In this document: one piece after another, positions 6,282 through 32,330 of the stretch
Numbering within the stretch: the stretch's first letter is position 1
Layout: each line of letters begins with the position of its first letter
Source: Arthrobacter sp. fls2-241-R2A-200
GTDB taxonomy: Bacteria; Actinomycetota; Actinomycetes; Actinomycetales; Micrococcaceae
NCBI RefSeq assembly: GCF_030209745.1
Contig: NZ_JARVRJ010000014.1
Span: 1-64,000, forward strand
Direction of reading: 5' to 3'
Length of the DNA stretch: 64,000 nucleotides
Notes under the pieces: model-generated
Told to the model about the DNA's origin: nothing
What the model saw: the letters and a program-made list of their open reading frames with translations, nothing else
Databases searched by the model: none
Position numbers and translations under genes: made by a program

Positions 6282-7472
6282 ATGTCCAACGCTGCATTCG
6301 ACGCCGCCACCCTCCCGTATGCCGACGGGGACTTTTATGCCTTTGAGCAGATGTTGACGGGCAAGGAGCGCGATCGGCTCGCCGAGGTGCGCGAATTCCT
6401 GGCCCGTGAGGTGACCCCCATCGCCACTGACTGCTGGAACCGGGGCGAATTCCCCATGGATCTCATTCCCAAGCTTGGTGAGCTGGACCTTGTCAGCCCC
6501 GTGCGCCGCCAGGGATTCTCCAACTTGTTTGCCGGCATGCTCCACGCCGAGGTCACCCGCGCTGACGCGTCGATAGCCACCTTCATGGGTGTTCACGATG
6601 GCCTCTTCACCGGCTCGATTGAGGCGCTGGCGTCCCAAGAACAAAAGGATGCCTGGCTGCCGGACATTTACTCCTTGCAGAAGATCGGCGCCTTCGGCCT
6701 GACCGAGCCGTTGGGTGGTTCGGATGTCGCTGGCGGAACACGGACCACGGCGCAGCGGGACGGTGACAGTTGGATCCTCAACGGCGCCAAGCGTTGGATC
6801 GGCAATGCAACTTTCTCGGACTGGGTGGTCATCTACGCCAAGGACGTGGCCGATAGCCAGGTCAAGGCGTTCCTAGTGGACACCTCACTGCCTGGTTACT
6901 CGGCCAGCAAGATCGAGAACAAAATCTCGCTGCGCACCGTGCAGAACGCCGACATCACCTTGGACAACGTGGTGGTGCCGGACTTCTACAAGCTGGCCAA
7001 CGCCAACAGTTTCCGTGACACCAACAAGGTCCTCAAGGTGACCCGCTTGGCAGTTGCGTGGCAAGCGGTGGGACTTCAGATGGCCGCCTTTGACGTCGCG
7101 CGCCGGTACGCCGTTGAGCGTCAGCAGTTCGGCCGGCCGTTGGCAGCATTCCAGCTCGTGCAAAACCAACTGGTGCAAATTCTCGGTAACACGGTGGCCT
7201 CCACCGGGATGATGGTTCGCCTCGCCCAGCTTGAGGATGCCGGCGTTGCCAAGGACGAGCAGTCAGCCCTTGCAAAGGCATTTGCTACCGCTCGCATGCG
7301 TGAAAGCGTAGCCCTCGGACGCAGCATCCTTGGCGGCAACGGCATCGTCACGGACTATGGGATGGCGAAGGTCTTCGCCGACGCCGAGGCCATCTACTCC
7401 TACGAAGGCACCCACGAGATCAATACCTTGGTGACAGGGCGAGCCATCACCGGCGTTTCCGCGATTGTCTGA
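6282..7472 (+). CDS. Acyl-CoA dehydrogenase, glutaryl-CoA dehydrogenase-like, 396 aa
   Basis: FAD-dependent alpha,beta-dehydrogenation of an acyl-CoA in the cytoplasm, passing electrons to ETF. The family blocks are present: GAFGLTEPLGGSDV (FAD/substrate region), RRYAVERQQFGRPL and, near the C-terminus, AIYSYEGTHEIN with the catalytic base E375. The overall sequence and the position of this Glu resemble the glutaryl-CoA/short-chain group more than medium-chain enzymes. ATG start with AAGGAG at good spacing. Monocistronic: the palindrome at 6228-6243 lies upstream, and a convergent gene lies 31 bases downstream. Confidence 0.88.
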   Translation: MSNAAFDAATLPYADGDFYAFEQMLTGKERDRLAEVREFLAREVTPIATDCWNRGEFPMDLIPKLGELDLVSPVRRQGFSNLFAGMLHAEVTRADASIATFMGVHDGLFTGSIEALASQEQKDAWLPDIYSLQKIGAFGLTEPLGGSDVAGGTRTTAQRDGDSWILNGAKRWIGNATFSDWVVIYAKDVADSQVKAFLVDTSLPGYSASKIENKISLRTVQNADITLDNVVVPDFYKLANANSFRDTNKVLKVTRLAVAWQAVGLQMAAFDVARRYAVERQQFGRPLAAFQLVQNQLVQILGNTVASTGMMVRLAQLEDAGVAKDEQSALAKAFATARMRESVALGRSILGGNGIVTDYGMAKVFADAEAIYSYEGTHEINTLVTGRAITGVSAIV

Positions 7473-11738: not shown

Positions 11739-12673
11739 TGAACCAGGCTGAGCCGGCGCCCGCAGAGCGGGCCCCGACACGCGATAGGCCCCGGCGTGCC
11801 AAGCGGCCACGGGAGAACCCCACGCCGAAGGCGGGCCGGAATCTTCCGGCGGCCATCGGCGTCGGGCTCGCCATGCTCGTGGCGGTCCTGGGTGGATTGC
11901 TGTTCCTTCCCCTGGGCTTCGTCCTGGTGACCACGGCCTTCGCAGTATTTGGGGTGTGGGAAGTCTTCCGGGCCCTGCAGGCCCAAGGCACCCGGCTACC
12001 GATCATCCCGGTCATGGTAGGGACACTGGTGATGCCGGTCTCGGCCTACTTCGGGGGCTTGGAGGGCCTGCTGTTTACCATGACGGCCTGCTCCGTGGCG
12101 GTGCTCGTTTGGCGTTCGGTGGAGAGTGCCGCAGGGGCGCCGCGGAGTGTTTTCGCCGGGGTTTTCACCTTGGCGTGGGTCCCTTTCCTGATCAGTTTCG
12201 CAGCACTGCCGCTCCATGCCACCGGAGGTGCGACGCCGATCGGCTTGTGGCCGAGCGGTATACCGCAAGGTGCTTGGCAGATCGCGACTCTCCTGCTGCT
12301 CGTGGTTTCAAACGACACTTTCGGCTACATCGTGGGTGCTTCGATCGGGAAGCACCCCATGGCGCCTAAAATCAGCCCCAAGAAGTCCTGGGAAGGCTTC
12401 GCGGGATCCGTGGGTGGTGCCATGGTGATTGGTGTCCTTTCCTGTATTTTCCTTCTCGACAAACCATGGTGGGTTGGCTTGGTGCTGGCCCTTGGCATGG
12501 TCGCCGCCGCAACTGCGGGGGACCTTGCTGAGTCCATGGTCAAGAGGGAATTGGGCGTCAAGGATATGAGCAGCATCCTGCCCGGCCACGGGGGCGTCAT
12601 GGACCGGTTGGACTCCATTGTTTTTGCGGCCCCCGTAGCTTATGTTTTGTTCGCGCTGCTCAGCGGCGTATGA
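11738..12673 (+). CDS. cdsA: Phosphatidate cytidylyltransferase
   Basis: Makes CDP-diacylglycerol from CTP and phosphatidate at the membrane, the precursor for all phospholipids, including the product of the phosphatidyltransferase at 3118-3741. The signature SMVKRELGVKD followed by LPGHGGVMDR is intact near residues 266-288. About eight hydrophobic helices follow a 35-residue basic, Pro-rich cytoplasmic N-terminus common in actinobacteria. Overlaps frr by one base (TGATG), so the two are co-translated. Confidence 0.95.
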   Translation: MNQAEPAPAERAPTRDRPRRAKRPRENPTPKAGRNLPAAIGVGLAMLVAVLGGLLFLPLGFVLVTTAFAVFGVWEVFRALQAQGTRLPIIPVMVGTLVMPVSAYFGGLEGLLFTMTACSVAVLVWRSVESAAGAPRSVFAGVFTLAWVPFLISFAALPLHATGGATPIGLWPSGIPQGAWQIATLLLLVVSNDTFGYIVGASIGKHPMAPKISPKKSWEGFAGSVGGAMVIGVLSCIFLLDKPWWVGLVLALGMVAAATAGDLAESMVKRELGVKDMSSILPGHGGVMDRLDSIVFAAPVAYVLFALLSGV

Positions 12674-12694
12674 GAACCCGATGAAGGATAATTA

Positions 12695-13279
12695 GTGTCC
12701 GTGGATATTCGACGCCAGATTCCCGCAACTTTCAATCGCGTGGAGCGCAGCAAATACGGCTACAACGCCAAACAAGTGGATGACTTCCTCAGCCGCGCCA
12801 AAACGTCGTTCGAGAATCCGGTGGGCGCCCCCGGCCACGTTGCCAGTGCAGACGTCCGTGCGGTTGCCTTCGACCCCGTCAAAGGTGGTTACGACGCCCA
12901 CACCGTCGATGCAGCCCTGGATCGACTGGAGGACGCCTTGGCCCGCCGGGAGCGCGACGACCTGATCGGGAAAGAGGGCGAAGAAGCCTGGCTGCGCCAG
13001 ATCGGCAAGCTATCGGGAATCCTGCGAGGCAGGCTCCACAGGCCCGACGGCGAACGGTTCCGCCGCCCGTCACACAAGCGGGCCCGCAGTTACAACGTCC
13101 AGGACGTTGACGCTTTGTGCGCAGAATTGGTCGGCTACCTCGAAAACGATCAGACCCTGAGCGTGGATACCGTGCGCAGGGCCGTATTCCGCGCGGCCCG
13201 TGGCGCCGACGGCTATGAGGAAGCCCAGGTGGACGCGTTCCTGGAGCGCGTGGTGGAGCTGATGGCGGCCATCGACTAG
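12695..13279 (+). CDS. DivIVA-domain repeat protein, 194 aa
   Basis: Three copies of a short DivIVA-type element are visible: YGYNAKQVDDFLSRA (near 20-34), GGYDAHTVDAALDRL (near 66-80) and the last, DGYEEAQVDAFLERV (near 172-186). A related SYNVQDVDALCAEL lies between. This is an actinobacterial relative of the Wag31/DivIVA N-terminal motif without the long coiled coil, so a small protein of polar growth or septation is possible. GTG start with GAAGGA upstream. Lies 21 bases after cdsA. Converges with the PHP gene. Confidence 0.8.
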   Translation: MSVDIRRQIPATFNRVERSKYGYNAKQVDDFLSRAKTSFENPVGAPGHVASADVRAVAFDPVKGGYDAHTVDAALDRLEDALARRERDDLIGKEGEEAWLRQIGKLSGILRGRLHRPDGERFRRPSHKRARSYNVQDVDALCAELVGYLENDQTLSVDTVRRAVFRAARGADGYEEAQVDAFLERVVELMAAID

Positions 13280-19879: not shown

Positions 19880-20752
19880 TCAGTCTTCGGTGGGGGTGGT
19901 CCGGTTCGGGTGGACATCCCGCCAGCTGTGCTGGGGTTCAAAACCCAGCACCTTGCGCGCCTTGTCGATCGACAGCATCGTTTCGTGTTCGCCCAACTCC
20001 TTGACCACCTCGACGCCGGGGAACACTTCGGCGGCCAGCGCGGCACTGCTGCGGGTCATCACGGTATCCGAGGCGGCAATGATGAAAGTTTCGAAACCCG
20101 GTGTCCCGTGTTCCAGGGCCTGGACCACGGCAAGTGCGCCGTCACGCGCGTCGATATAACCCCAGAGGTTCCATTTGCGCAGAGTCGGGTCCGAATCAAA
20201 GGACGGGAAGGCCTCATAGTCTTCCGGGTCCATGACGTTGGAGAACCTCAGCGCCGTGATGCTCAGGTTCGGGTCCCACCGCGTCAGTTGGATGGCCATC
20301 TGCTCTTCGAGGTGTTTCACCAGTGAGTAGGTACTCTCTGGCCGTGCTGCATACTCCTCGTCCACAGGGATGTACGGCGGTTCGACGTCGAAGGGCAGCC
20401 CGAGGACGGTCTCGCTGGAGGCGTACACCACCTTGGTGATCCCGGCCCTGCGGGCCGCCTGGAACACGTTGTACGTGGAGAGCATGTTGTTCTCGAAAAT
20501 CGCGGCGTCAGGAGCGAGCCCCGGGGCGGGAATTGCTGCAAGGTGCACAATGGCATCTATGCCGTTGTGCCTGTCGTCGAGGCCAAGGATCACGTCCAGG
20601 ACCTGTCCGTAGTTGCGGAGGTCCACGTTCACGTAACCCGGGCCGCGAGTTCCCATGCGATCCAGATTGAGTACGTCGTGGCCATCTTGGACGAGCCGCC
20701 TGACGACGCTCCTGCCCAATTTTCCGCTTCCCCCGGTGACGGCAATCCTCAT
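19880..20752 (-). CDS. NAD-dependent epimerase/dehydratase (extended SDR), 290 aa
   Basis: Rossmann start MRIAVTGGSGKLGRSVVRRL, LAAIPAPG, a Ser and the YSLVK catalytic pair near residues 143-147, and NVMDPEDYE mark an extended short-chain dehydrogenase acting on a sugar or nucleotide sugar. ATG at 20750-20752 is supported by GAGGAG seven to eleven bases upstream; the open frame reaches 31 codons further without a site. Single gene, convergent with the E2 gene. Substrate unknown. Confidence 0.86.
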   Translation of the reverse strand: MRIAVTGGSGKLGRSVVRRLVQDGHDVLNLDRMGTRGPGYVNVDLRNYGQVLDVILGLDDRHNGIDAIVHLAAIPAPGLAPDAAIFENNMLSTYNVFQAARRAGITKVVYASSETVLGLPFDVEPPYIPVDEEYAARPESTYSLVKHLEEQMAIQLTRWDPNLSITALRFSNVMDPEDYEAFPSFDSDPTLRKWNLWGYIDARDGALAVVQALEHGTPGFETFIIAASDTVMTRSSAALAAEVFPGVEVVKELGEHETMLSIDKARKVLGFEPQHSWRDVHPNRTTPTED

Positions 20753-20950
20753 CGTGAACTCCTCGCTTGTAGCTGCCCTAGCCAAGGGCCTGTTGTCCGG
20801 CGTCCGGCCATGCGCAATGAATGTCCAGTGCAGTGAATGGTGCAACGAATGGTCGGTCTTTCAACCCTAAACTTCGTGAGCACCCAAAACAGCCCTGTAG
20901 CTGGCCCTGTGAGTCCTAGGATGTGCAGCCGGGTGAGATCCCCGGCGGCG

Positions 20951-21774: not shown

Positions 21775-21801
21775 CTAAATGAAAGGGGCTAAATGAAAGG
21801 G
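21775..21801. repeat. 14-base tandem duplication at the end of the YcaO gene
   Basis: CTAAATGAAAGGGG at 21775-21788 is repeated almost fully at 21789-21801. Each copy carries a TAG on the minus strand; the gene ends at the first, inside the 21789 copy. It looks like a replication slippage product. Confidence 0.7.
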
Positions 21802-23039
21802 TGCGGAAGCGGGTTGCCTGGTAGCCCGTTCCCGGCGGCAGCCGCACCAAGCACGTTCCACTCCAACGCCTCGGACATCCGAAGGGGCTGGAGAGTATCG
21901 CAGAAGATCTTCACCGCACACCAACCCATTTCCCTGATCGCTTGTGGCAGCCGCGGTGTCAGATCGATCAGCGTGTATCCAGCCAAGATGTCCGGCCAAG
22001 CTCCTTGCTGTCCGTCTGCGGCGCTAGCCTCCGCATCGGAGACGAGGGAGTGGCTTGCGCGGGGGATGCGATCCAGCCATGTACGGATTGCCGTGATACT
22101 GGCATCGGCTGCCCAGTAGCGAGCCCGGGCCATCTCACTGGTGATCGGCGGCGCCATGGGCCTCTCGCCCTCGGAATCTTTTAAGTTGATGAGCAAGGAC
22201 CTGATTTGCAGGGACTCTTGAACGGCACGCAGCACGCCGAGGAACCGGTCATGTTCCAGCCCTAGTCCCGCGCCCACAACCCCGTGCTTTGTGTCGATGG
22301 CAACGGCCATCCACACCGCGTGTCCGTGGGACTCGTCGAGGAGGACCAGTTCCAGTTCCACGCCTTGGGAGGCAGCAGCTTTGGCCACATCAAGCACCCG
22401 GGCGTCGGGGCCTGCGCTCCTCGGCCTGGGAGCTCCGCTAATGGGTTCGAACGCTGCATCGGCAAGTTCGAACCGCAGTGCTGCTTCGGGCCGGTCCCAC
22501 CCTCGCATTGCGGCGTGGCGTTCGATGATCTCCTTGGCAGCCGACTGTTCCGCGGTTGCCCGGCTGATGCCCGCAGCGGTCCCCGAAGGGCTCGGGTCAA
22601 AAAGATCCTGTGCCCCTGGCGTTGCAGCACGAGGGAAGTCCACCGCCGCCGCAGGTACAGCCACCGCTCTTTCTCTGCCGTCGCCGTCGTATCTTGTTGC
22701 TGCATAAACGTCCACGTTGGGTAGGGCTGAGATGTCTGCCCAGCTCACACCGCGGGGCGCGATGGGAAGTCCGGCACCGTTGGGCAGCCCAGGGTGCGGG
22801 ATGAGCGCTCGGCGCTCCACCGCTTCGCCGGTCGCCCGGGCGAACGTCGGGGCGCGCCTGACGCCTGCCGCACCCACCCAACTCATATCGATGCCGGCGT
22901 TCGATTCGTCCGGACGTTCCTGACCGATATCGACGGCGACCGTCCACAGCAGGCTATTCGTTCCGTCCGGGGGCAGAACCCGAACACTGCGTGCCAAGCC
23001 GAGGGCAGGGTTCAGTGTCTGGAGGTAATCAACTCCCAT
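21789..23039 (-). CDS. YcaO-domain protein of the RiPP cluster, 416 aa
   Basis: YcaO enzymes use ATP to activate a peptide backbone amide. Visible: ARATGEAVERRAL (E72, E75) matching the ATP/Mg-binding helix, the SGTAAG turn (152-157) followed by EQSAAKEIIERHA (E170, E173), and a C-terminus closing in PLPHPFI, the Pro-rich end seen in cyclodehydratase YcaOs. The usual ERDA reads ERHA. There is no E1-like/ocin-ThiF partner, no TfuA and no flavin azoline dehydrogenase in the operon. ATG at 23037-23039 has AAGGAT at good spacing and overlaps the dehydrogenase end; a TTG at 23048 is possible. Last gene of the operon. Its substrate is unclear because the precursor cores have no Ser or Cys and only a terminal Thr. 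Confidence 0.8.
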   Translation of the reverse strand: MGVDYLQTLNPALGLARSVRVLPPDGTNSLLWTVAVDIGQERPDESNAGIDMSWVGAAGVRRAPTFARATGEAVERRALIPHPGLPNGAGLPIAPRGVSWADISALPNVDVYAATRYDGDGRERAVAVPAAAVDFPRAATPGAQDLFDPSPSGTAAGISRATAEQSAAKEIIERHAAMRGWDRPEAALRFELADAAFEPISGAPRPRSAGPDARVLDVAKAAASQGVELELVLLDESHGHAVWMAVAIDTKHGVVGAGLGLEHDRFLGVLRAVQESLQIRSLLINLKDSEGERPMAPPITSEMARARYWAADASITAIRTWLDRIPRASHSLVSDAEASAADGQQGAWPDILAGYTLIDLTPRLPQAIREMGWCAVKIFCDTLQPLRMSEALEWNVLGAAAAGNGLPGNPLPHPFI

Positions 23040-24342
23040 AAGGATCAATCCTTAAGTCAGTCAGGCCGGCGGCCCGGATACCGGCTGCAAACATCTCCGA
23101 CAGTTGCTCACGTGCCAATTCCTTTTTCATGGGACGGCCGCGGCCGAATCGGCGCAGGGTGTTCCTGGCCAAGGCATCGGCGAGGTCTGACTGAATAGGG
23201 CTTGGGGGAACGAGGTCTGCGGGTACGAGGCTGCCGCCGCCCGAAGTCCCCTTTCCCGAAGCATCGCTTCCAGGACGCTTTCCTTCGGAAAGCCTGCCTC
23301 CGGAGCCGAGGGCGTGATCCGGCCCCAACCGAGCGACGCTCGCGGCACGTGCAACGCCGTTGGCAACCAGGGGCCAGAGCTCCTCAAGCTTTTGCCCATC
23401 ACCCCAGACGGTGTTACCTCCGGCGACGGCGGCGAGCCACGGCCCCAGCAGGAGGATGGATGCTTGGTTCTTGCGGATGCCCAGGGCCATGGACAACTCA
23501 TTCGCCAAGAACCACAGCGATGACGGCGCCGGGCCGCGGCCGCGTAATGACCAACCAGCGTGCGACTCCGCACTCAGCAGGGCCGCATCCAGACGCTGTT
23601 GGCTGGACAATCGGAAACCGCTCTCTGTCCCGGCCCGGAGGTTCGCACCAGCGGCTCCGAGCAGCCAGCGCCCCTGTGCCTCGGAGTAACCCAGCGCGGA
23701 CCCGCCTTCCACCATTGAGGTTAGGAGCCGGACAGCCGGTTCGAGCAGGCCCTCTGCCGCGAGCCACGGTGGTGCCTCAAGGAACCCGGGGTCGTAGGCG
23801 ACCATGGACGTGCTCAAGCCCTCCAGCAGGACCAGGTTCTTTGCCCTGTCCGGCCAGGGGTCGCCGTCGTCACTGCGGGGCGATTCGTAGCAGGCGCCGG
23901 CGTTGACCTCGGAACCCGTACCAAACGTGCTCGGGATCACGCCAAACTCTATGTGGCCCGCGAGCGGCCGGGGGAGGATTGCGACGCCGTTTCGGTCGCC
24001 TATGCGCCGCAGGAACGGCTCCACGGATGGATCGGACGCCATCGCTACAGCGAGCTTTGCGACGTCCATGGTGTTGCCGCCGCCGACCGCAAGAAGGCGT
24101 TCCACGCCGGACTGGTCCAACCGCCGCGCGAGCTTTGACGCCGTCTCAATACCGGCTGGCAACCCAGCGTCCTCGACCCACAGGAAGCCGCCCGGGTCGA
24201 GGATTTCCAGTCGGTCGCTCAAAGCCGGGTCAGCCACCAGTACGGTCCTGGTGGAACGAAAAGCCTGCGCCAGCCGGACGGCCGACCCCGCTCCGGCAAT
24301 CTGTGCGGGAGTGGCCGGCCTTTGAACCAGGGCGGAAATCAC
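23029..24342 (-). CDS. Daptide-type dehydrogenase / oxidative decarboxylase (iron-ADH fold), 437 aa
   Basis: The NAD-binding half keeps GGGNTMDVAKL (87-97) and STFGTGSE (138-145) of iron-dependent alcohol dehydrogenases. In the described daptides, such a protein oxidises and decarboxylates the C-terminal Thr of the precursor. The stretch where the family has its metal Asp and first His reads GLLEPAVRL (198-206), and the later His positions also look replaced, so the metal site seems lost or moved. A Gly/Ser-rich insertion lies near 360-380. GTG start overlaps the aminotransferase TGA (GTGA). Alternative: an unrelated polyol dehydrogenase relative. Confidence 0.8.
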   Translation of the reverse strand: MISALVQRPATPAQIAGAGSAVRLAQAFRSTRTVLVADPALSDRLEILDPGGFLWVEDAGLPAGIETASKLARRLDQSGVERLLAVGGGNTMDVAKLAVAMASDPSVEPFLRRIGDRNGVAILPRPLAGHIEFGVIPSTFGTGSEVNAGACYESPRSDDGDPWPDRAKNLVLLEGLSTSMVAYDPGFLEAPPWLAAEGLLEPAVRLLTSMVEGGSALGYSEAQGRWLLGAAGANLRAGTESGFRLSSQQRLDAALLSAESHAGWSLRGRGPAPSSLWFLANELSMALGIRKNQASILLLGPWLAAVAGGNTVWGDGQKLEELWPLVANGVARAASVARLGPDHALGSGGRLSEGKRPGSDASGKGTSGGGSLVPADLVPPSPIQSDLADALARNTLRRFGRGRPMKKELAREQLSEMFAAGIRAAGLTDLRIDPYGS

Positions 24343-25586
24343 GCGAATTGCCCGGCCAGGTAGTCCGTTACGACACTTTGGATCCGGTCGAACAGCACGT
24401 CCAACTCCGCGTCGGGATAGTTCAGCGCCGGCACGAACTGCACCGCCCCCGGAGAAGGCTGGACGACGGCGCCTCGCCGTCGGCACTCGCTGACGAGTTC
24501 GAAGACTTTGTCCGTCCCGATGAGCTCTCCTGCATCGTCGAAGAGCTGCACAGCGCGGAATGATCCGCGGCCGAACCCTTTGACCCGCGGTGAAAGGCTC
24601 TCCAGCCCGGAAACAAAGGCCGCAAGCCTCCTGCCCACGCGGGCTGCTGAGGTAGCTATGTCGAGGCGTTCGATTTCATCCAAAGTCGCCACAATGGCGG
24701 CACAGGACTGCGGGGACCCGGCTTGGGTCTCTCCGTGCCAGAACACCTGCTGTGCTTGGTCGAACGCGTCCACAACGCGGTCACCCAGGAGCAGCGCCGA
24801 CGCGGCACATGTTCCGTTGGTGAGGGCCTTGCTGAGGACCAGGACATCGGGCTGAATCCAGTCATGGCTGGCAAATCGTGGGCCCGTCCGGTGGAAGCCG
24901 GTGGCGACCTCATCGGCAACAATGAGGAACCCTTCGGATTCCCGGTAGGCGTACACGGCGTCGACGATGTCTTGTGGCACCGGTAGCGCGCCGGAACCCA
25001 GAACGGGTTCCATGATCACCGCGGCAATTTCCGGACCAAACCTCTTCATCACGATGTCCAGGGCCGCCAGGTCATCGTAGGGAATCTTGATGTTCAGCCG
25101 TTGATCCACCTGGTAGACGTCCTGGAAAAGATAGGAGCCCGTGACAGCCATCGCGCCCATGGTCACACCGTGGTAGCTGGCGGTGAAACTGACGATCCTG
25201 CGGCGTTTGGGATTCGAGTTGATGTCGTGGAACTGGCGGCTGAGCTTGACCACGGCATCAAGCGCAGAGCTGCCGGAGGTGGCGTAGAAGACCGAAGAGT
25301 ACTCATGGGGAAGAACGAACTCCAGCAAGCGGGTAGCAGCTTCGCGCGAGTAGGCACTGCCGCGGCGGAAGATCGGCAGGGTGGCCGCATTGAGGTTCGC
25401 TTCGTTGATCGCTTCTGCTATCGCCACGTTGCCGTAGCCCAAGCTTGCATTCCAGAGGCCACTGATGCCGCACAAAGCCTCTGTCCCATCCGCAAAGGTG
25501 ATGGTGTTGCCCCGAGCAGCCGTTGCTTCGGCATTGCCCCAATCCTTGGACGGGACGTAAAACTCGAAGTATTCACTGCTGGACAT
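24339..25586 (-). CDS. Daptide-type class III aminotransferase, 415 aa
   Basis: PLP-dependent, fold type I. Landmarks: ATSGSSALDAVVKLSRQ (phosphate-binding turn), SYHG, MEPVLGSG, D225 in VADEVATGFHRTG, and K253 in LVLSKALTNG, the Schiff-base lysine. In daptide biosynthesis the partner enzyme aminates the C-terminal ketone left by oxidative decarboxylation of Thr. ATG at 25584-25586 inside the methyltransferase 3' end (14-base overlap) gives a family-length protein. The operon place next to the dehydrogenase and the methyltransferase supports the role; by sequence alone it could be any omega-aminotransferase. Confidence 0.86.
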   Translation of the reverse strand: MSSSEYFEFYVPSKDWGNAEATAARGNTITFADGTEALCGISGLWNASLGYGNVAIAEAINEANLNAATLPIFRRGSAYSREAATRLLEFVLPHEYSSVFYATSGSSALDAVVKLSRQFHDINSNPKRRRIVSFTASYHGVTMGAMAVTGSYLFQDVYQVDQRLNIKIPYDDLAALDIVMKRFGPEIAAVIMEPVLGSGALPVPQDIVDAVYAYRESEGFLIVADEVATGFHRTGPRFASHDWIQPDVLVLSKALTNGTCAASALLLGDRVVDAFDQAQQVFWHGETQAGSPQSCAAIVATLDEIERLDIATSAARVGRRLAAFVSGLESLSPRVKGFGRGSFRAVQLFDDAGELIGTDKVFELVSECRRRGAVVQPSPGAVQFVPALNYPDAELDVLFDRIQSVVTDYLAGQFA

Positions 25587-26349
25587 CCGTGCTTTCCCCC
25601 ATCGCGTCTGGCCCAGGAGAGTGGGCCCTGAAAAGTTTGTAGTCGCCGATCGCACCGACCCGGTTCCGCGGCCCGACGTCGACCGCGTCCTTGAGGACCA
25701 ATCCCGCCTCGCGCAGTTCAGTCCTTAGATCGCTTTCGGTCAAAAGATGTGTCGTCACCGAATACTCCGCGATTGCCTGCCCGTCATCTGATCGTTCGAT
25801 CAACGTCGAGGAGAACGTTCCGCGGACGGCGTCGAACCTCTCCTCGATTGCCAGGTTCGGCGAAACTTCATGCACGTAGCTGTTCTGTCCGCCTAAATCG
25901 GGAATGCGCAACGAGAGCAGGAGCTCGCCCCCTGGGTTTAACCATTGGCGGATGTCGGCAAGGAGCGAGCGGCGCTGGTCGGCGTCGAAGAGACAGAATG
26001 AAGTGGTCCCGAGGACGACGCAGTCGAAGTGGCCACCCGGCTCCAAGCTCAGGATGTCAGCCAGGACGACGTTCGCTTTTGACGCAATGTTCTTGCGGTT
26101 TGGCCGTGCAAGTTCCTCGCTGAGTATGCGCAGGAGCTCCGCTGAGTTGTCCACGGCCGTGATGGATCGGACGAAGGGCAGGAGAGCCAGCGTTATCCGG
26201 CCGGAACCTGCCGCCAGTTCAAGTACACGGGCGTCCTTGCCCCTGAGTCTGTGGATGATCTCTCGCAGTTCAGAGGTGTCCGATTGGACGATCTCATGGT
26301 AGAGCTCGGCGCCCCTCCCGGTGTAAAGGGTTGCTTGGGCGCCGCTCAT
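25573..26349 (-). CDS. Daptide-type SAM methyltransferase, 258 aa
   Basis: Class I methyltransferase: motif I VLELAAGSGR (42-51), ITAVDNSAELL (motif II acidic end), VLADILSLE, and FDCVVLGTTSFCLFD (motif IV). In daptides the methyltransferase dimethylates the new C-terminal amine. Overlaps the 364-residue protein by four bases (ATGA) and the aminotransferase by fourteen. Length and order fit the core modification set of the cluster. Substrate assignment is by context. Confidence 0.85.
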   Translation of the reverse strand: MSGAQATLYTGRGAELYHEIVQSDTSELREIIHRLRGKDARVLELAAGSGRITLALLPFVRSITAVDNSAELLRILSEELARPNRKNIASKANVVLADILSLEPGGHFDCVVLGTTSFCLFDADQRRSLLADIRQWLNPGGELLLSLRIPDLGGQNSYVHEVSPNLAIEERFDAVRGTFSSTLIERSDDGQAIAEYSVTTHLLTESDLRTELREAGLVLKDAVDVGPRNRVGAIGDYKLFRAHSPGPDAMGESTDVQQ

Positions 26350-27440
26350 GTGATGATGACCGGAACGATGGTCAGCGCGGGATTCACGGGAACTGCAACT
26401 GCAGGGGGCGCTACGGCGTCCATGCCGGGGCTAACGTCGATGCCCAGATGGCTGAACAGCATTTGCAGCTCTTTGCTCCGGGCAATCTGCGCGGAGGGGG
26501 CAAGATCCTTGCCCGAAAGCTTCAGCCCGAGCCTGCCCTGCAGTTCCGCACCAAGCTCAACACCTGAAAGAACAGTTTCCACGGCCTGGGCGACGTCCTT
26601 GGGAACCTTGTTCAGCCGTCCCGTGCGTAGCTCCGTCACGAAATACTGTTCGTCGGCAACGATGACGAACACGCTATCCAGGCGGGACCGTTCCGCTGCG
26701 GGGTCGCCGTCGACCAACGAGGACCCGAAGCCCGAAATCCGGGCGTCAGCCGGGAACCGGCTTTGTGCGGCTCTAAGCACCTTTGCTGCCCCGAGAAAGC
26801 GCCCGATCCCGCTGTTTTCCCTCAGCATTTTCGCGTTCTCCTCACCGGCAACCGGGGAGTGAGTGGTGTACGCGCCGTCATTTACTTCAACGCCGCCCCC
26901 CGCCGGTCCCGAGAGCACCGGCGACGCTACCGCAGGGACAAACAGCCGCGCGGGATCATTGCCCAGTTGGCCACAGCTGTGCCAGAATTCCTGGTCCACG
27001 ACTGTGACGAGCTGGGTCAGCAGGAACCGCGGAAACACCCCGGTTTGGAAGGCCGTCGAGGCATCTGCTGCCACGGCCTCACGGTCAGCGTCTTCTTCGA
27101 TGGAGAAGGCCGTCGGGCAAGAGATCGCAACGTAGGGGGCCGTTGCATAGCCTTCAAGCTGGACTACGAAATTGGTCCCGATTCCGATCTCTCCGCCGTT
27201 CGTCGAGAATTCACCGTTGTAACCAACAACCCTTGAGCGGGTTAGTGCCTGCACGGCTTCGATGTGGGATTCCTCGACGAACACCAAGGACTCTTCAGAT
27301 CCGGGAAGCGACGTCATCGCCTCATCGCTAACGGCCCCCACCACGAGTGCATCATGGACTCCCGGGGCAGGCCGTGTTCCTTCAAGCCACAAACGCAGCC
27401 GTTCTGAAAACGCGGCCTCCTGCGTCAAATCTTCACTCAT
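26346..27440 (-). CDS. Probable RiPP recognition protein with core-like C-terminal tail, 364 aa
   Basis: I do not recognise the N-terminal 250 residues. Residues about 255-293 (VFVIVADEQYFVTELRTGR and following helix) resemble a PqqD-like RiPP recognition element, so this is my candidate for the leader-binding daptide B protein. The last 25 residues are hydrophobic, Pro/Val-rich and end in IVPVIIT, with Thr as the final residue like the two precursors. Either it is an adaptor with an unusual tail or it is itself a large-leader substrate. ATG with strong GGAGGGG site; 35 bases after the glycosyltransferase. The terminal ACA codon overlaps the next start. Confidence 0.7.
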   Translation of the reverse strand: MSEDLTQEAAFSERLRLWLEGTRPAPGVHDALVVGAVSDEAMTSLPGSEESLVFVEESHIEAVQALTRSRVVGYNGEFSTNGGEIGIGTNFVVQLEGYATAPYVAISCPTAFSIEEDADREAVAADASTAFQTGVFPRFLLTQLVTVVDQEFWHSCGQLGNDPARLFVPAVASPVLSGPAGGGVEVNDGAYTTHSPVAGEENAKMLRENSGIGRFLGAAKVLRAAQSRFPADARISGFGSSLVDGDPAAERSRLDSVFVIVADEQYFVTELRTGRLNKVPKDVAQAVETVLSGVELGAELQGRLGLKLSGKDLAPSAQIARSKELQMLFSHLGIDVSPGMDAVAPPAVAVPVNPALTIVPVIIT

Positions 27441-27475: not shown

Positions 27476-28543
27476 TTAGGTCTGAATTTCTTGAAGTCTC
27501 CGCGCCAACGCAGTTCGCATGTGGGCCACAGCTCCAGGGAATCGGTGGCTAAGAATCGCCCGAATGGCTCGGCGGTGGCTGCCGCTGACTACTGGCGCCG
27601 CAAGGCCCACCAGCCAGCCGTCCTTGCCGCCCGGAAACACGCCCAAGGCGAAGGCCGCACCCGGAGCTCCGGATGTGCCACCGGAGAACCCGGACATCCC
27701 ACGCGTAACGTGCGACTCTGCATCCGGTCTGGAGCCAGCCACGGTGAGCGGCATCATGGTTAGCGGGTCGTCCTCGATCTCCGAAGCCCACCGACGAAAG
27801 TCTTGGGTGAGTTCATCAGCCGGAATGTTCCGGTGCCACTCATCGAGCAATGAAACGGCTGCGTTCTCGCTGGAGGTGCTGGCCAGCGCCGTGACCATCG
27901 TGTAGTCCAGCGAATGCCGCCGGGTCGACCCGGAAATGGAAACAACCGCAGTTGGTTCATCGACGGGCTGCAGGGCAGCTCCCTGGCAGGTCATCCGCCA
28001 CCAGAGGTCCCAGTCCTCAAGACCGGCTCCCGCGCGGCACCAACCTCCAGCCCGCTCCAACAGCCCGGGACGGTGGGCCACGCGGCTTGGCTCTGCGTAG
28101 GGATCGAGGGTGGCAATGTCCGGATGCCACAGGAGGTTTCGGCCGCGAAGGAAGGTGGACTGTCCGTCCTCCCGTTGGTAGGTAGCGCCACTGGCCACGA
28201 ACTCTGAACCGCCGTCGAGTGCCTTGCCAAGGACCGCGAGATGGTCCCCCCGCCACAGGTCGTCGTGGTCGATGTAGGCCACGTACCCATCGCGGATGCC
28301 GAGGCTCAATTGGCGCCGGACCAGACCCGGATCACCCGTGTGCGGATAACGTAGCAGCTTCACGCGCCGGTCAGCTCGGGCGAAGCCGTGAACGACGTCG
28401 TCCGTATCGTCTGTGGAACCATCAGAGCCAACAAGAAGGTCGAAGTTGCCGTTGCTTTGGCCCAGGACGCTTTCCATGGTTGGGGCGATCGCTGTTGAGC
28501 GGTTGTAGGCGGGGCAAATGACGGTAAACCGGGGATGGCTCAT
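27476..28543 (-). CDS. Family 2 glycosyltransferase in the RiPP operon, 355 aa
   Basis: GT-A fold: FTVICPAYNRSTAIAPTMESV at the start (nucleotide-sugar loop), GSDGSTDDTDD (39-49), and DHDD (92-95) as the metal-binding DxD-type motif; EDWDLWWRM in the acceptor region is common in GT2 enzymes. The last 140 residues are not a standard GT domain. ATG overlaps the M50 stop (ATGA), so it belongs to the operon. A glycosyltransferase is not in the daptide set I know. The cores offer Tyr, Asn and Trp but no Ser or internal Thr, so the acceptor is unclear. Confidence 0.82.
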   Translation of the reverse strand: MSHPRFTVICPAYNRSTAIAPTMESVLGQSNGNFDLLVGSDGSTDDTDDVVHGFARADRRVKLLRYPHTGDPGLVRRQLSLGIRDGYVAYIDHDDLWRGDHLAVLGKALDGGSEFVASGATYQREDGQSTFLRGRNLLWHPDIATLDPYAEPSRVAHRPGLLERAGGWCRAGAGLEDWDLWWRMTCQGAALQPVDEPTAVVSISGSTRRHSLDYTMVTALASTSSENAAVSLLDEWHRNIPADELTQDFRRWASEIEDDPLTMMPLTVAGSRPDAESHVTRGMSGFSGGTSGAPGAAFALGVFPGGKDGWLVGLAAPVVSGSHRRAIRAILSHRFPGAVAHMRTALARRLQEIQT

Positions 28544-30153
28544 GGTCCCATCACCCTGCCCACGATATTTCCCGCCCATTGGGCCATGGTCTGACCTGGA
28601 ACTTCCCACACGGCTGTGCCGGTCCGCGGTGCCGTGCCGGCATAGTCAAGGCGAACGCAGAGCGCTTCTCGGGTCAGGTCCGACTCCTTCACGGCCACCG
28701 TCGCGGCCAACGGAACCGTGCAGGGGGCTGGCGCTCCGATTACGGTTGCTTTTCCGATTCTGCTGCCGGTCACGAGCCCGGGACCAAAGAGGTCCACTGT
28801 CCCGCCCGCAGAACCGGTGGAGCCGCCGAGTAATACAAGCTTTGGACCGTTGGCGTCGGTATAGAGTCCGGCGCGGACGTTGTTCGGGAAGGGAATTGCT
28901 ACCACGAGAACCACGGCGGCAGCGAGGAGGGCGAGGGCATATGCGGTGGCAGGGCCCTTGCGGATGCCGGACTTGCGCAGTTCGATCACGTGTCCCATTC
29001 CCCGCATGAGCAGCCATATGGCCAAGGCGCCTGCCAGGAATAATTGAATCCACGCGGCAGCCTTGCCAAGGGAAGAGAGGTAGCTGCCGGCAGCAGCGAC
29101 AACACCGATCAGGATAAGGAGCGGGAACACAGTGCAGAGGAGGCCGAAGAGAAGGCGGAGGGGAGTGGAAGGCAGCCCAGGCTCCCGGCCTGTGCGGAAA
29201 ACCAACGTCCGGGTCCACGCACGGAACTCGTGCATGCAGCGGGCTCGAAGATTCGGCTTGTCCAAAAACCCGATCAGCGCGATGTAGCCATCCAGCTTCA
29301 CGAACGGAATCAGGTTAAGCACACCGTAGAGGAAGCACAGCGCGCAGAAGGTGGCAGCGAGGGTGGCGAGGTCGCGGGGCAGCACGAAGGCGCCGATGCC
29401 GGCGACGGCTGCCAGGTTGCCTTGGGCGGTAATACCTGCGAGAGCAACCTTGGCGCGTTCGGCGGGTTTCAGTTTCCAGGCCTCGGTGACATCGCAAAAG
29501 AACGCCGGAACGAGATAGAACAGCATGAAGCCCACACGTCGAGACGTGCCCCCGTAGGCAACCAGGGTCGCTGCATGGGAAAGCTCGTGAACAAAAACAG
29601 CCAGATACAGGGCCAGGAGTAAGCAGAGGTATCCCGCCACAGTGGTGGTGTCGTGCAGGGCACTTTGCGAGTCCAGGAGCAGCGCAGCAACGGCGGCCAC
29701 TCCGACGGCATTGAGTGCGGCGACGCTCCACCAGAAGCCGCGGCTACGGATTATTCGTCCAATACCGGGCAAGCGGCCCAGCAGTCTTGACGGGTCCAAC
29801 AAGGTCAGCTGGATGGAAAAGGGTCTGCGGAATTGAAGGCGCCGGGTTGAAGGTGCGTCTATCCGTGCCAGAGCCGGATTCTTGCCCAAGGTATCGAGCA
29901 ACAGTTGCACTTCTTCCCCGGTCACGGGTTTCGTGACCGTTCCGGCCCGCCCTGCTGAGGCGGTGGCGCGGAGCCTATCCGCGATCACTTGGACGTCAAT
30001 GTCCGGTAACGACCGCTGCGCTTCCTCAACGATGCGCCCCAAAGTGTCCGGCAAACGTAGGACTGGGCCGGCAGCACTACTAACCAGGACTCGGCCCGCT
30101 TCATCGGCATCGGAGAGATGAATCTGGCTCAGCCAAGGGTACTGGCCGTTCAT
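28540..30153 (-). CDS. M50-family intramembrane metalloprotease of the RiPP cluster, 537 aa
   Basis: Zinc site H189-E190-x-x-H193 in VFVHELSHAATL, with the second ligand in PFVKLDG (LDG at 287-289); ten or so membrane helices. N-terminal residues about 12-62 resemble a PqqD-like domain (VLRLPDTLGRIV), common in peptide-processing M50 proteins. The 120-residue C-terminal domain after the last helix is probably extracellular. Described daptide clusters carry such a protease, thought to remove the leader. ATG overlaps the permease TGA. A frame extension of 19 codons upstream is not needed. Confidence 0.88.
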   Translation of the reverse strand: MNGQYPWLSQIHLSDADEAGRVLVSSAAGPVLRLPDTLGRIVEEAQRSLPDIDVQVIADRLRATASAGRAGTVTKPVTGEEVQLLLDTLGKNPALARIDAPSTRRLQFRRPFSIQLTLLDPSRLLGRLPGIGRIIRSRGFWWSVAALNAVGVAAVAALLLDSQSALHDTTTVAGYLCLLLALYLAVFVHELSHAATLVAYGGTSRRVGFMLFYLVPAFFCDVTEAWKLKPAERAKVALAGITAQGNLAAVAGIGAFVLPRDLATLAATFCALCFLYGVLNLIPFVKLDGYIALIGFLDKPNLRARCMHEFRAWTRTLVFRTGREPGLPSTPLRLLFGLLCTVFPLLILIGVVAAAGSYLSSLGKAAAWIQLFLAGALAIWLLMRGMGHVIELRKSGIRKGPATAYALALLAAAVVLVVAIPFPNNVRAGLYTDANGPKLVLLGGSTGSAGGTVDLFGPGLVTGSRIGKATVIGAPAPCTVPLAATVAVKESDLTREALCVRLDYAGTAPRTGTAVWEVPGQTMAQWAGNIVGRVMGP

Positions 30154-30890
30154 AGGAGGTCGGTTCGTTTGAGCCGGATCGCGGCTGCCGTGAAAAGAAG
30201 CACAAGCCACCCCAGGTAGGTAGCGTAGCCGGCACCTACCGGAAGCATGTCGAACGTGGCCGAAGGATCAAGGCTCATGGCTTGGCCCGCGGCGCCGGGA
30301 AGGAACTTGCCAACCACTGGTAGAAGGTTCACGAGGTTGGGCTCGAGGACCAAGGTCCATGCGACCAAAGCGACGACCACGGGCAGGGACTTCCGGCCCT
30401 GCCAGGCGACAAACTGGCCAAGATAGGCCGCAAAGACAATGGTGAAAAAGACTCCCGCAAGAGTGGTCCTACCGTCGGTATCGAGGATGAATTGTCCGCC
30501 CTTTGACCAAAGGCTCATCATCGCTACGGCTACCACGGATAGGGTTCCTGCGATGGCGAAAGCGATGGCGGGAAGCAGCAAAGCGAAGGCACGCAGGGTC
30601 AGCAAGCGCAGGGGGCCGCCGGAGAGGAAGGCGCTCCGTCCGATGGAGGAGTTGCCGAAGTCGCGCGTGACACAGATGATTCCAAAAATCATGGAAAACA
30701 GGCTCGCTCCGAACCCGAGGCCCACCAGCGAGGCAGTGGCCTTCTCTGAGCCGCCCGGCAATGACAGCCCTGCGGAGTCCATGCCTGTGGAGGTGCCATA
30801 GGCCGCGAGGACATTCATGGCGAATGCGCTGAGAAGCAGAACAGGCAACGACCAACCACGGGACATGCGGAAAACTTCAGAACGAATCAT
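30150..30890 (-). CDS. ABC transporter permease of the RiPP cluster, 246 aa
   Basis: Six hydrophobic helices in the ABC-2 arrangement, with GIICVTRDFGNSSIGRSAFLSG as the coupling-helix region. Pairs with the ATPase encoded just upstream (ATGA overlap). Expected to export the mature peptide or give self-protection. No exporter peptidase domain is present; cleavage is left to the M50 protein. Confidence 0.86.
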   Translation of the reverse strand: MIRSEVFRMSRGWSLPVLLLSAFAMNVLAAYGTSTGMDSAGLSLPGGSEKATASLVGLGFGASLFSMIFGIICVTRDFGNSSIGRSAFLSGGPLRLLTLRAFALLLPAIAFAIAGTLSVVAVAMMSLWSKGGQFILDTDGRTTLAGVFFTIVFAAYLGQFVAWQGRKSLPVVVALVAWTLVLEPNLVNLLPVVGKFLPGAAGQAMSLDPSATFDMLPVGAGYATYLGWLVLLFTAAAIRLKRTDLL

Positions 30891-31636
30891 GAGCGCTCAG
30901 CCACCCCTGCGGTGTCCCGGGCGGCGGTGTCGGGATCGTCGCCGACCAGCGACAGATACCAGCGTTCCAGTTCCGGGTCATCCATGCCGGGAATGGCGCC
31001 GTCGAACCGCAGGCTGCGGCGAACCACGATAGCCCGCTCCGCCAGGCGCCGTATTTCTGAGAGATTGTGGCTGGAGATCAGGGTCGTCTTGTTCTGGGCT
31101 GTTCGCGCTTCGATCTTCCTGCGAAGCCAACGCGTCGATTCGATGTCCAAACCGTTCATGGGCTCGTCGAGGACCAAGATCTCCGGGTCGCCCATCATCG
31201 CAGCTGCCAGGGCTGTTCTCTGCCGCTGGCCTGTGGACAGCTTCCGCACGCGACGGCCCGCGAATTCGGATAGCTCAAAGTCCGCCGTGGCGTTGGCGAC
31301 GGCGGTTCCGTCCAGTTTTTGGCCCAGCGCCTCGATGGTGAGGCACTCCCTGACCGTGAGATCCGGCGCGAGGCCGGCGGGATCGAAAACAAAGCCCATT
31401 GTCTTGCCGGGCTCCGTGACGGAACACGGATCCTGGCCCAAGATGCGGACGTGCCCTGCGCTGGGCTTGATCAATCCACACAGGGTTTTCAAAAGGGTTG
31501 ACTTTCCAGCCCCGTTCGGTCCCAGAAGACCGACGCATTCACCCCGGCCAATGGTGAGGGTAATTCCTGTGATTCCTGTTTTCCGGCCGTATCTTTTTTC
31601 CAGGTCCTTCACGGAAACGACCGGTTGCGTTGTCAT
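30887..31636 (-). CDS. ABC transporter ATPase of the RiPP cluster, 249 aa
   Basis: Complete nucleotide-binding domain: Walker A GPNGAGKST (39-47), signature LSTGQ (133-137), Walker B LVLDEP (154-159) and SSHNLSEI as the switch-His region. CcmA/DrrA-like exporter ATPase. ATG at 31634-31636 has GGAG ten bases upstream and lies five bases after the stop of the small membrane protein. Partner of the permease at 30150-30890. Confidence 0.9.
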   Translation of the reverse strand: MTTQPVVSVKDLEKRYGRKTGITGITLTIGRGECVGLLGPNGAGKSTLLKTLCGLIKPSAGHVRILGQDPCSVTEPGKTMGFVFDPAGLAPDLTVRECLTIEALGQKLDGTAVANATADFELSEFAGRRVRKLSTGQRQRTALAAAMMGDPEILVLDEPMNGLDIESTRWLRRKIEARTAQNKTTLISSHNLSEIRRLAERAIVVRRSLRFDGAIPGMDDPELERWYLSLVGDDPDTAARDTAGVAERS

Positions 31637-31641
31637 TGCCA

Positions 31642-31833
31642 CTAACTCCGCTTCCGCAGCAGTCCAATGAAAATGCCCAGCACTATCAGCAGGATGAGGC
31701 ATACCGCCAAAGAAATTCCGAGGAGGATCGGCTGGGTACCGTTGACCGCAAGCATCGCGGTCAATCCGCCCAGCGTTGCCACGAGGGCTCCAAGTATGGC
31801 TATGAGGGGGATGGCAGCCTTACCTTGTGTCAT
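31642..31833 (-). CDS. Two-helix membrane peptide, 63 aa (possible immunity protein)
   Basis: Two hydrophobic helices (about residues 6-27 and 34-56) with a short polar turn and a basic end (LLRKRS). ATG at 31831-31833; a GTG twelve bases upstream is an alternative, and a longer frame starting just after the second precursor would read through the hairpin at 31908-31944 and has poor codon use. Lies between the precursors and the exporter, where small immunity peptides of bacteriocin clusters often sit. Function unproven. Confidence 0.6.
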   Translation of the reverse strand: MTQGKAAIPLIAILGALVATLGGLTAMLAVNGTQPILLGISLAVCLILLIVLGIFIGLLRKRS

Positions 31834-31955: not shown

Positions 31956-32132
31956 CTAGGTGATGGCTACGCCGATGCCGATGCCGCCTGCGACGACGCC
32001 TGCAGCACCAACTCCGATCGCTACTCCGCCAAAGAATTCTCCCCAGTTCCAAGCCGCGTCGAGCGACTCCAGTGGTTCGATTCCGGCTACGAGGGTCATG
32101 AATTCGTTGTCTACATCAAGAGTGGTTTCCAT
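31956..32132 (-). CDS. Daptide-type RiPP precursor A2, 58 aa
   Basis: ATG at 32130-32132 with GGGGAGGTG at good spacing. Acidic leader (residues 1-26) ending in LESLDA, then a Gly/Ala/Val/Ile core. The last ten residues, GGIGIGVAIT, differ from those of the other precursor at one position. If cut after LDA the core is 32 residues, the same as in A1. The core has no Ser or Cys and Thr only at the C-terminus, the residue that daptide enzymes convert to a dimethylated diamine. Near the leader junction it carries AWNWGEFF. Gly-spaced helix suggests a membrane-active product. Confidence 0.85.
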   Translation of the reverse strand: METTLDVDNEFMTLVAGIEPLESLDAAWNWGEFFGGVAIGVGAAGVVAGGIGIGVAIT

Positions 32133-32183
32133 TTTCACCTCCCCAAAGGCCTTATATGGACAGTCCGGACTCGCCATTGAATA

Positions 32184-32330
32184 TCAGGTGATTGCGACGC
32201 CGATGGCGATGCCGCCGTAAATGAGGCCACCGCCAACAACTGCGCCTACGCCGATCCCGGCAACCCACTCACCCCATCCGGGTGCGTCAAGTTCTTCAAG
32301 CTGCTCAATCTGAGCCAGTTGGTTCTCCAT
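32184..32330 (-). CDS. Daptide-type RiPP precursor A1, 48 aa
   Basis: ATG at 32328-32330 with GGGGGGAGG nine bases upstream, one of the strongest ribosome sites in the window. Acidic leader (1-16: Glu/Gln/Leu-rich) ending in LEELDA, then a 32-residue hydrophobic Gly-rich core ending [10 protein letters not shown]. The whole peptide has no Cys or Ser; Thr48 is its only Thr. PGWGEW starts the core, parallel to AWNWGE in A2. First gene of the operon. Known daptide precursors share the Thr end and Gly-rich core. Confidence 0.86.

Follow-up and report, generated by a model that had tools for sequence, protein, structure and literature searches.

Two short open reading frames on the minus strand head a biosynthetic operon in the window, the 64,000-nucleotide stretch of Arthrobacter sp. 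fls2-241-R2A-200 DNA analysed here. Both A1 (32184..32330, 48 aa) and A2 (31956..32132, 58 aa) had been picked out in an earlier note and are present at these coordinates, each with GGGGAGGT shortly 5' of its ATG, which bears out the strong ribosome sites described there. The leaders end as described, with LEELDA in A1 and LESLDA in A2, and the common C-terminus GGI(A/G)IGVAIT is confirmed, the A2 tail being GGIGIGVAIT. The claimed core composition is likewise found, in that Ser and Cys are absent from both cores and the sole Thr is the final residue. The single Tyr of A1 occupies position 21 of a predicted 31-residue core, and the predicted A2 core, also of 31 residues, has no Tyr.

Behind the precursors, on the same minus strand, lies a gene for a 63-aa hydrophobic protein (31642..31833; 87% identical in the loci L006 and L007), which has no Pfam match and possibly has an immunity or export role; judged by eye, similar small hydrophobic proteins are encoded in L049 (about 12654-12836), L098 (13845-14075) and L099 (5992-6222). 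There follow, all on the minus strand, the ABC transporter ATPase T1 (30887..31636; PF00005; start by inspection); T2, taken from its position and conservation as the putative permease partner of T1 (30150..30890; no family match); the RiPP leader peptidase DapP, with an HELSH motif (28540..30153; NF041824, 333.5 bits against a cut-off of 300; start by inspection); a 355-aa GT2 glycosyltransferase whose start overlaps the DapP stop (27476..28543; PF00535, 58 bits); DapB, the RRE protein of the oxidative decarboxylase (26346..27440; NF041823, 130.9 bits, cut-off 150); the SAM methyltransferase DapM (25573..26349; NF041820, 165.9 bits, cut-off 175); the class III aminotransferase DapD (24339..25586; NF041821, 443.2 bits, cut-off 450; start by inspection); the Fe-ADH-type dehydrogenase DapC (23029..24342; NF041822, 169.6 bits, cut-off 300; PF00465); and a YcaO protein, a candidate DapY, with the C-terminus PLPHPFI (21789..23039; PF02624, 56.1 bits). 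T2, DapP, the glycosyltransferase, DapM and DapC each begin inside the stop of the preceding gene, as in a single operon, and the gene order is the same in L006 and L007.

DapP and, narrowly, A1 (NF041808, 25.2 bits against a cut-off of 25) pass the curated NCBIfam cut-offs, and DapB, DapM, DapD, DapC and A2 (NF041808, 13.9 bits) have daptide models as their best matches but fall below them. These matches support the daptide identity of A1 and A2, and the window locus is almost certainly a daptide system. The class itself is already known; the window cluster is a real, divergent and new variant of it.

Two observations at the edges of these genes may be added. The C-terminus of DapB (window 26346-26400) reads ...PALTIVPVIIT and resembles a daptide core tail, as does PALTIVPAVIT in L006 and L007, and the 24 further DapB-like ORFs in the comparison all end in a residue other than Thr; the tail could make the decarboxylase its own substrate, or could be a chance product of the ATGA overlap with dapM. 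Beyond YcaO, and adjoining it on the same strand, lies an NAD-dependent epimerase gene (19880-20845), possibly for a sugar-nucleotide enzyme. No homologous ORF was found in the L007 stretch, which reaches 4.4 kb beyond its YcaO; the L006 stretch stops inside its YcaO.

Conservation of the precursors and the position of the leader cut

The same A1/A2 pair is held by L006 and L007, near-copies of the locus in MAGs labelled Pseudarthrobacter and Arthrobacter. Between the window and L006, the A1 and A2 cores together show 19 synonymous and 1 non-synonymous codon differences, the A1 leader 3 and 0, and the A2 leader 4 and 6, and the remaining cluster proteins are 61-87% identical; judged by these codon counts, both cores and the A1 leader are under strong constraint. 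L073, L098 and L099 hold related precursor pairs, likewise with cores of 31 + 31 residues, and the pattern.W.....G.G.G....G...YGGIAIG.A.T is invariant across the five distinct A1 cores of the window, L006, L073, L098 and L099. A1 and A2 are genuine daptide precursor genes.

For wider comparison, 35 daptide clusters with 71 distinct cores were assembled from protease searches (matches to about 1e-50), glycosyltransferase searches and plasmids (four of seven plasmid matches read). Eight clusters carry the glycosyltransferase (GT+: the window, L006, L007, L073, L098, L099, L049 and L050); GT- denotes no match to the GT2 profile at 1e-4 and covers the GT2 family alone. Five scan matches were judged by eye not to be precursors and discarded (window 53217 and 56283, L048 7189, L070 14421 and L077 11391), and L075 and L076 (protease-like match only), L008 (no daptide precursor) and one duplicate within L086 were omitted from the counts; L051-L053 are short fragments that belong to other loci. 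A terminal Thr is found in all 71 distinct cores, collected by a scan limited to ORFs with Thr, Ser or Cys as the last residue.

Characterised daptides are cleaved after P(-1), the Pro behind 'EA', and L(-7) and M(-4) are essential in the published leader register (Ren et al., 2023, PMC10036551); azuritides are cleaved after ELExxxxx although P1 varies (Dommaraju et al., 2025, PMC12338566). By inspection, the window leaders fit a register of L(-7), L(-4) and P/A(-1). In view of these published sites, a later cut is preferred to the one after LDA that the earlier note had considered, which is probably one residue too early: A1 would probably be cut after LEELDAP and A2 between LESLDAA and WNWGE, giving cores of 31 + 31 residues, with 32-residue cores the less likely outcome. 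Equality of the two lengths, as described there, holds for either cut (32/32 after LDA, 31/31 one residue on), but not as a special trait: equal-length pairs occur in all eight GT+ clusters (31 + 31 in six, 29 + 29 in two) and also in 7 of the 21 GT- clusters having at least two precursors, and so are not a diagnostic signature. Since residue -1 of A2 is Ala, and since a P(-1)A variant of MpaA1 showed reduced decarboxylation (PMC10036551), A2 may be the poorer substrate of the two.

Proposed C-terminal chemistry and related daptide systems

In the daptide pathway, the terminal Thr is converted to a ketone by DapB and DapC, to an amine by DapD and to a methylated amine by DapM; where a YcaO protein is present the end becomes a dimethylimidazoline, and the precursors of one cluster may receive different ends (Dommaraju et al., 2025, PMC12338566). 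We infer, from homology, a C-terminal amine chemistry of this kind for A1 and A2. The window YcaO has a PxPxP end (PLPHP), and a PHP-type end is common to most other daptide-cluster YcaOs. An imidazoline end is proposed for the window because of the work on YcaO daptides of Thermobifida fusca and Streptomyces azureus (PMC12338566), and we think it quite likely that one or both peptides would carry it.

Among characterised systems, the mpa daptides of Microbacterium paraoxydans share with the window the leader register, the terminal Thr, the hydrophobic core, the enzymes B, C, D, M and P, ABC export and multiple precursors per cluster (Ren et al., 2023, PMC10036551). The window differs in having two precursors, longer cores and an additional YcaO and GT2, mpa having been selected for primary enzymes only, and in that four of its five Dap enzymes score under the NCBIfam cut-offs. 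The T. fusca and S. azureus systems share both the daptide enzymes and YcaO, whereas the tfDap and saDap gene lists consulted name no glycosyltransferase and the window has a GT2 (Dommaraju et al., 2025, PMC12338566).

Core tyrosine and the GT2 glycosyltransferase

Tyr at core position 20 or 21 is found in 8 of 8 GT+ clusters and in none of the 27 GT- clusters (Fisher 4e-8, kinship ignored). Counted by hand-lumped lineage the contrast is 4/4 against 0/11 (p 7e-4), and by distinct core 8/16 against 0/55; for Tyr anywhere in the core, the lineage counts are 4/4 and 3/11 (p 0.026). The hypothesis of a link between Tyr and glycosyltransferase was set down after the window, L006, L007, L049 and L050 (GT+) and L039-L048 (GT-); in the 20 clusters read thereafter, Tyr20/21 occurs in 3/3 GT+ and 0/17 GT- clusters, L077 among the latter having been seen partly beforehand as L051. 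The exact position 20/21 was fixed once part of the data was known, the ranges tried having been positions 19-22 and 8-12 residues from the end, and then 20/21. Tyr lies 8-12 residues from the end in 1 of 55 GT- cores, in a preliminary register with some cores cut 3 residues early, and L067 (GT-), with Tyr23 of 34, is an exception under the earlier, looser wording 'near C-terminal third'.

A single GT+ clade is rejected both on the D tree (34 rows; p-AU 2e-105), from which L098 is absent owing to an incomplete gene, and on the P tree (35 rows; 2e-4), long branches being flagged in the analysis. Glycosyltransferase and Tyr20/21 change together in 3/3 (D) and 2/2 (P) supported independent pairs, for which a tree-aware sign test gives p 0.25 and 0.5, not significant, fewer than six pairs being unable to reach 0.05. 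A1 and the glycosyltransferase may also have been co-inherited, or have moved together, for other reasons.

At the level of individual cores, A1 of L049 and L050 likewise has Tyr21, and the GT- clusters L080 (GFGEW, WDWGHFF) and L040 (GFWDTAAG), with similar core starts, have no Tyr. Further Tyr residues occur as Tyr5 in A1 of L098 and L099 and as Tyr7 in A2 of L073, Ser/Thr are also present in A1 of L049, L050 and L073, and A2 is without Tyr in the window, L006, L007, L098 and L099. For the window, Tyr21 of A1 is the obvious candidate acceptor because the cores lack Ser and Cys and their sole Thr is terminal and consumed by the pathway, a scarcity that is informative because a glycosyltransferase and a YcaO sit in the cluster. 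The enzyme very probably acts on A1 or A2, and the association points, with somewhat less assurance, to Tyr21 of A1 as its acceptor.

Glycosyltransferases are listed among the secondary enzymes of daptide clusters, an account in which none is characterised and no acceptor is assigned (Ren et al., 2023, PMC10036551). A family-wide search with the window enzyme at 1e-40 returned the window only (1/395), the glycosyltransferases of L049 and L050 falling below that limit, and no relatives were found on plasmids at 1e-20 in the plasmid collection. When 118 genomes of the class were searched with the glycosyltransferase only, seven had a match, the window's own genome included; in the two best of the others (178 and 89 bits) the gene lies inside a daptide cluster whose A1 ends in ALYGGIAIG(V/I)AIT and has Tyr21. 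For the four weaker genomes (61-71 bits), two of which were examined, no daptide cluster was established; the six other genomes were G1341, G1355, G1372, G1349, G455 and G1348, and gene neighbourhoods were examined in the first four, for G1349 at one of its two places.

A genome-contig scan with the glycosyltransferase, which covered close relatives only, gave three loci, namely L006, L007 and L008. The last is Streptomyces cacaoi NBRC 12748, in which the cacaoidin cluster is present (PMC8068269); it has two GT2 genes with 33-36% identity to the window enzyme over the alignment, and a small Tyr-containing ORF between the first GT2 gene and an ABC transporter gene, and by gene order these genes are taken as Cao8, Cao16 and CaoA. 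Cacaoidin is a RiPP with a disaccharide O-linked to Tyr, and the attachment of its rhamnose by Cao8 and Cao16 is its authors' proposal, unproven (PMC8068269). Like the product proposed for the window, it is a RiPP with an O-glycosylated Tyr; unlike it, cacaoidin is a class V lanthipeptide with lanthionine chemistry, and its cluster holds three glycosyltransferases and rhamnose genes (PMC8068269). In the glycosyltransferase tree, a clade of daptide enzymes with Cao8 and Cao16 appears in 6% of bootstrap trees (p-AU 0.272) and is neither supported nor rejected; a RiPP-only clade gains no backing from this tree.

Taken as a pathway, DapB would bind the leader and, with DapC, oxidatively decarboxylate the terminal Thr to a ketone, which DapD would transaminate and DapM would then methylate. 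Ring closure of the mono-methylated amine to a dimethylimidazoline may be the work of the YcaO, the GT2 would put a sugar on the phenol of the single Tyr of A1 at core position 21, DapP would cleave after LDAP or LDAA, and the ABC pair would export the two hydrophobic 31-residue peptides. The catalytic steps, the leader cut and export we infer from homology; for the whole, we incline towards a YcaO-tailored daptide of two peptides, of which A1 is O-glycosylated on Tyr21. By this association a candidate acceptor is named for daptide-cluster glycosyltransferases, the window cores offering hardly any other. If true, it would provide a second kind of tyrosine-glycosylated RiPP, give a membrane-active peptide class a glycosylated form, and define a small GT2 group working on the tyrosine of hydrophobic peptides. 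The broader proposition we hold at even chances: a daptide subgroup in three actinobacterial families and more than one cluster lineage, with paired peptides, one of them O-glycosylated at Tyr20/21 by a dedicated GT2, and an amine or imidazoline end, whose glycosyltransferase may have passed between clusters for daptides and those for class V lanthipeptides.

Alternative explanations and further daptide clusters

The alternative that survives best, which we nevertheless regard as unlikely, keeps the daptide pathway and directs the GT2 to another site, whether Trp, the new N-terminus, Asn or the leader. In its favour, window A2 has no Tyr, whichever A1 or A2 core is taken from the six clusters window, L006, L007, L073, L098 and L099 has Trp among its first three residues, and an N-linked sugar on Trp is known in the lanthipeptide NAI-112 (PMC8068269). 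However, the Trp position varies among A1 cores, N-terminal Trp is common in GT- clusters too, and the presence of the glycosyltransferase tracks Tyr20/21 rather than Trp; retention of Trp also has a separate reason, in that Trp3 of T. fusca DapA1 is required for decarboxylation (PMC12338566).

Rather more doubtful is the explanation that the GT2 leaves the peptides alone and serves self-protection or the cell envelope, the product then being a plain pair of Dmp or imidazoline daptides. The predicted structure of the enzyme, a weak model (pLDDT 67.9), matches GT2 structures, with SpsA best, and the solved enzymes closest to it in sequence and fold are of the polysaccharide type, with no peptide-acting glycosyltransferase among them. 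Against this stand the overlap of its start with the DapP stop, the location of the gene within the operons of L006 and L007 and beside DapP in L049 and L050, and the fact that its presence tracks a residue inside the peptide core. That A1 and A2 are accidental or decayed reading frames that yield no product, as their shortness and the low score of A2 might suggest, is very improbable given the 19-to-1 ratio of synonymous to non-synonymous core differences, the good ribosome sites and the related pairs in other families. A glycocin was considered as well and set aside, as neither core has Cys or Ser and Thr is terminal only.

A second daptide cluster lies on another contig of the same genome (L039, 12143-12673, G000:C26), with close look-alikes in L041-L048. 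Like the window cluster, it has daptide enzymes, a YcaO and the terminal Thr; unlike it, it has three precursors (cores of 25, 23 and 24 aa), contains Ser/Thr and has no GT2 match. With two daptide pathways in the same genome whose leader motifs resemble each other, one may ask whether cross-talk occurs between them. A further daptide-like cluster, in L074, has two protease genes and precursors at 6855-6950 and 7170-7283 with leaders ending in LDAA like that of window A2; its cores, WVIIIPIIIIIT and LLIPLIPFIPLFFPLILT, are very short and nearly all aliphatic.
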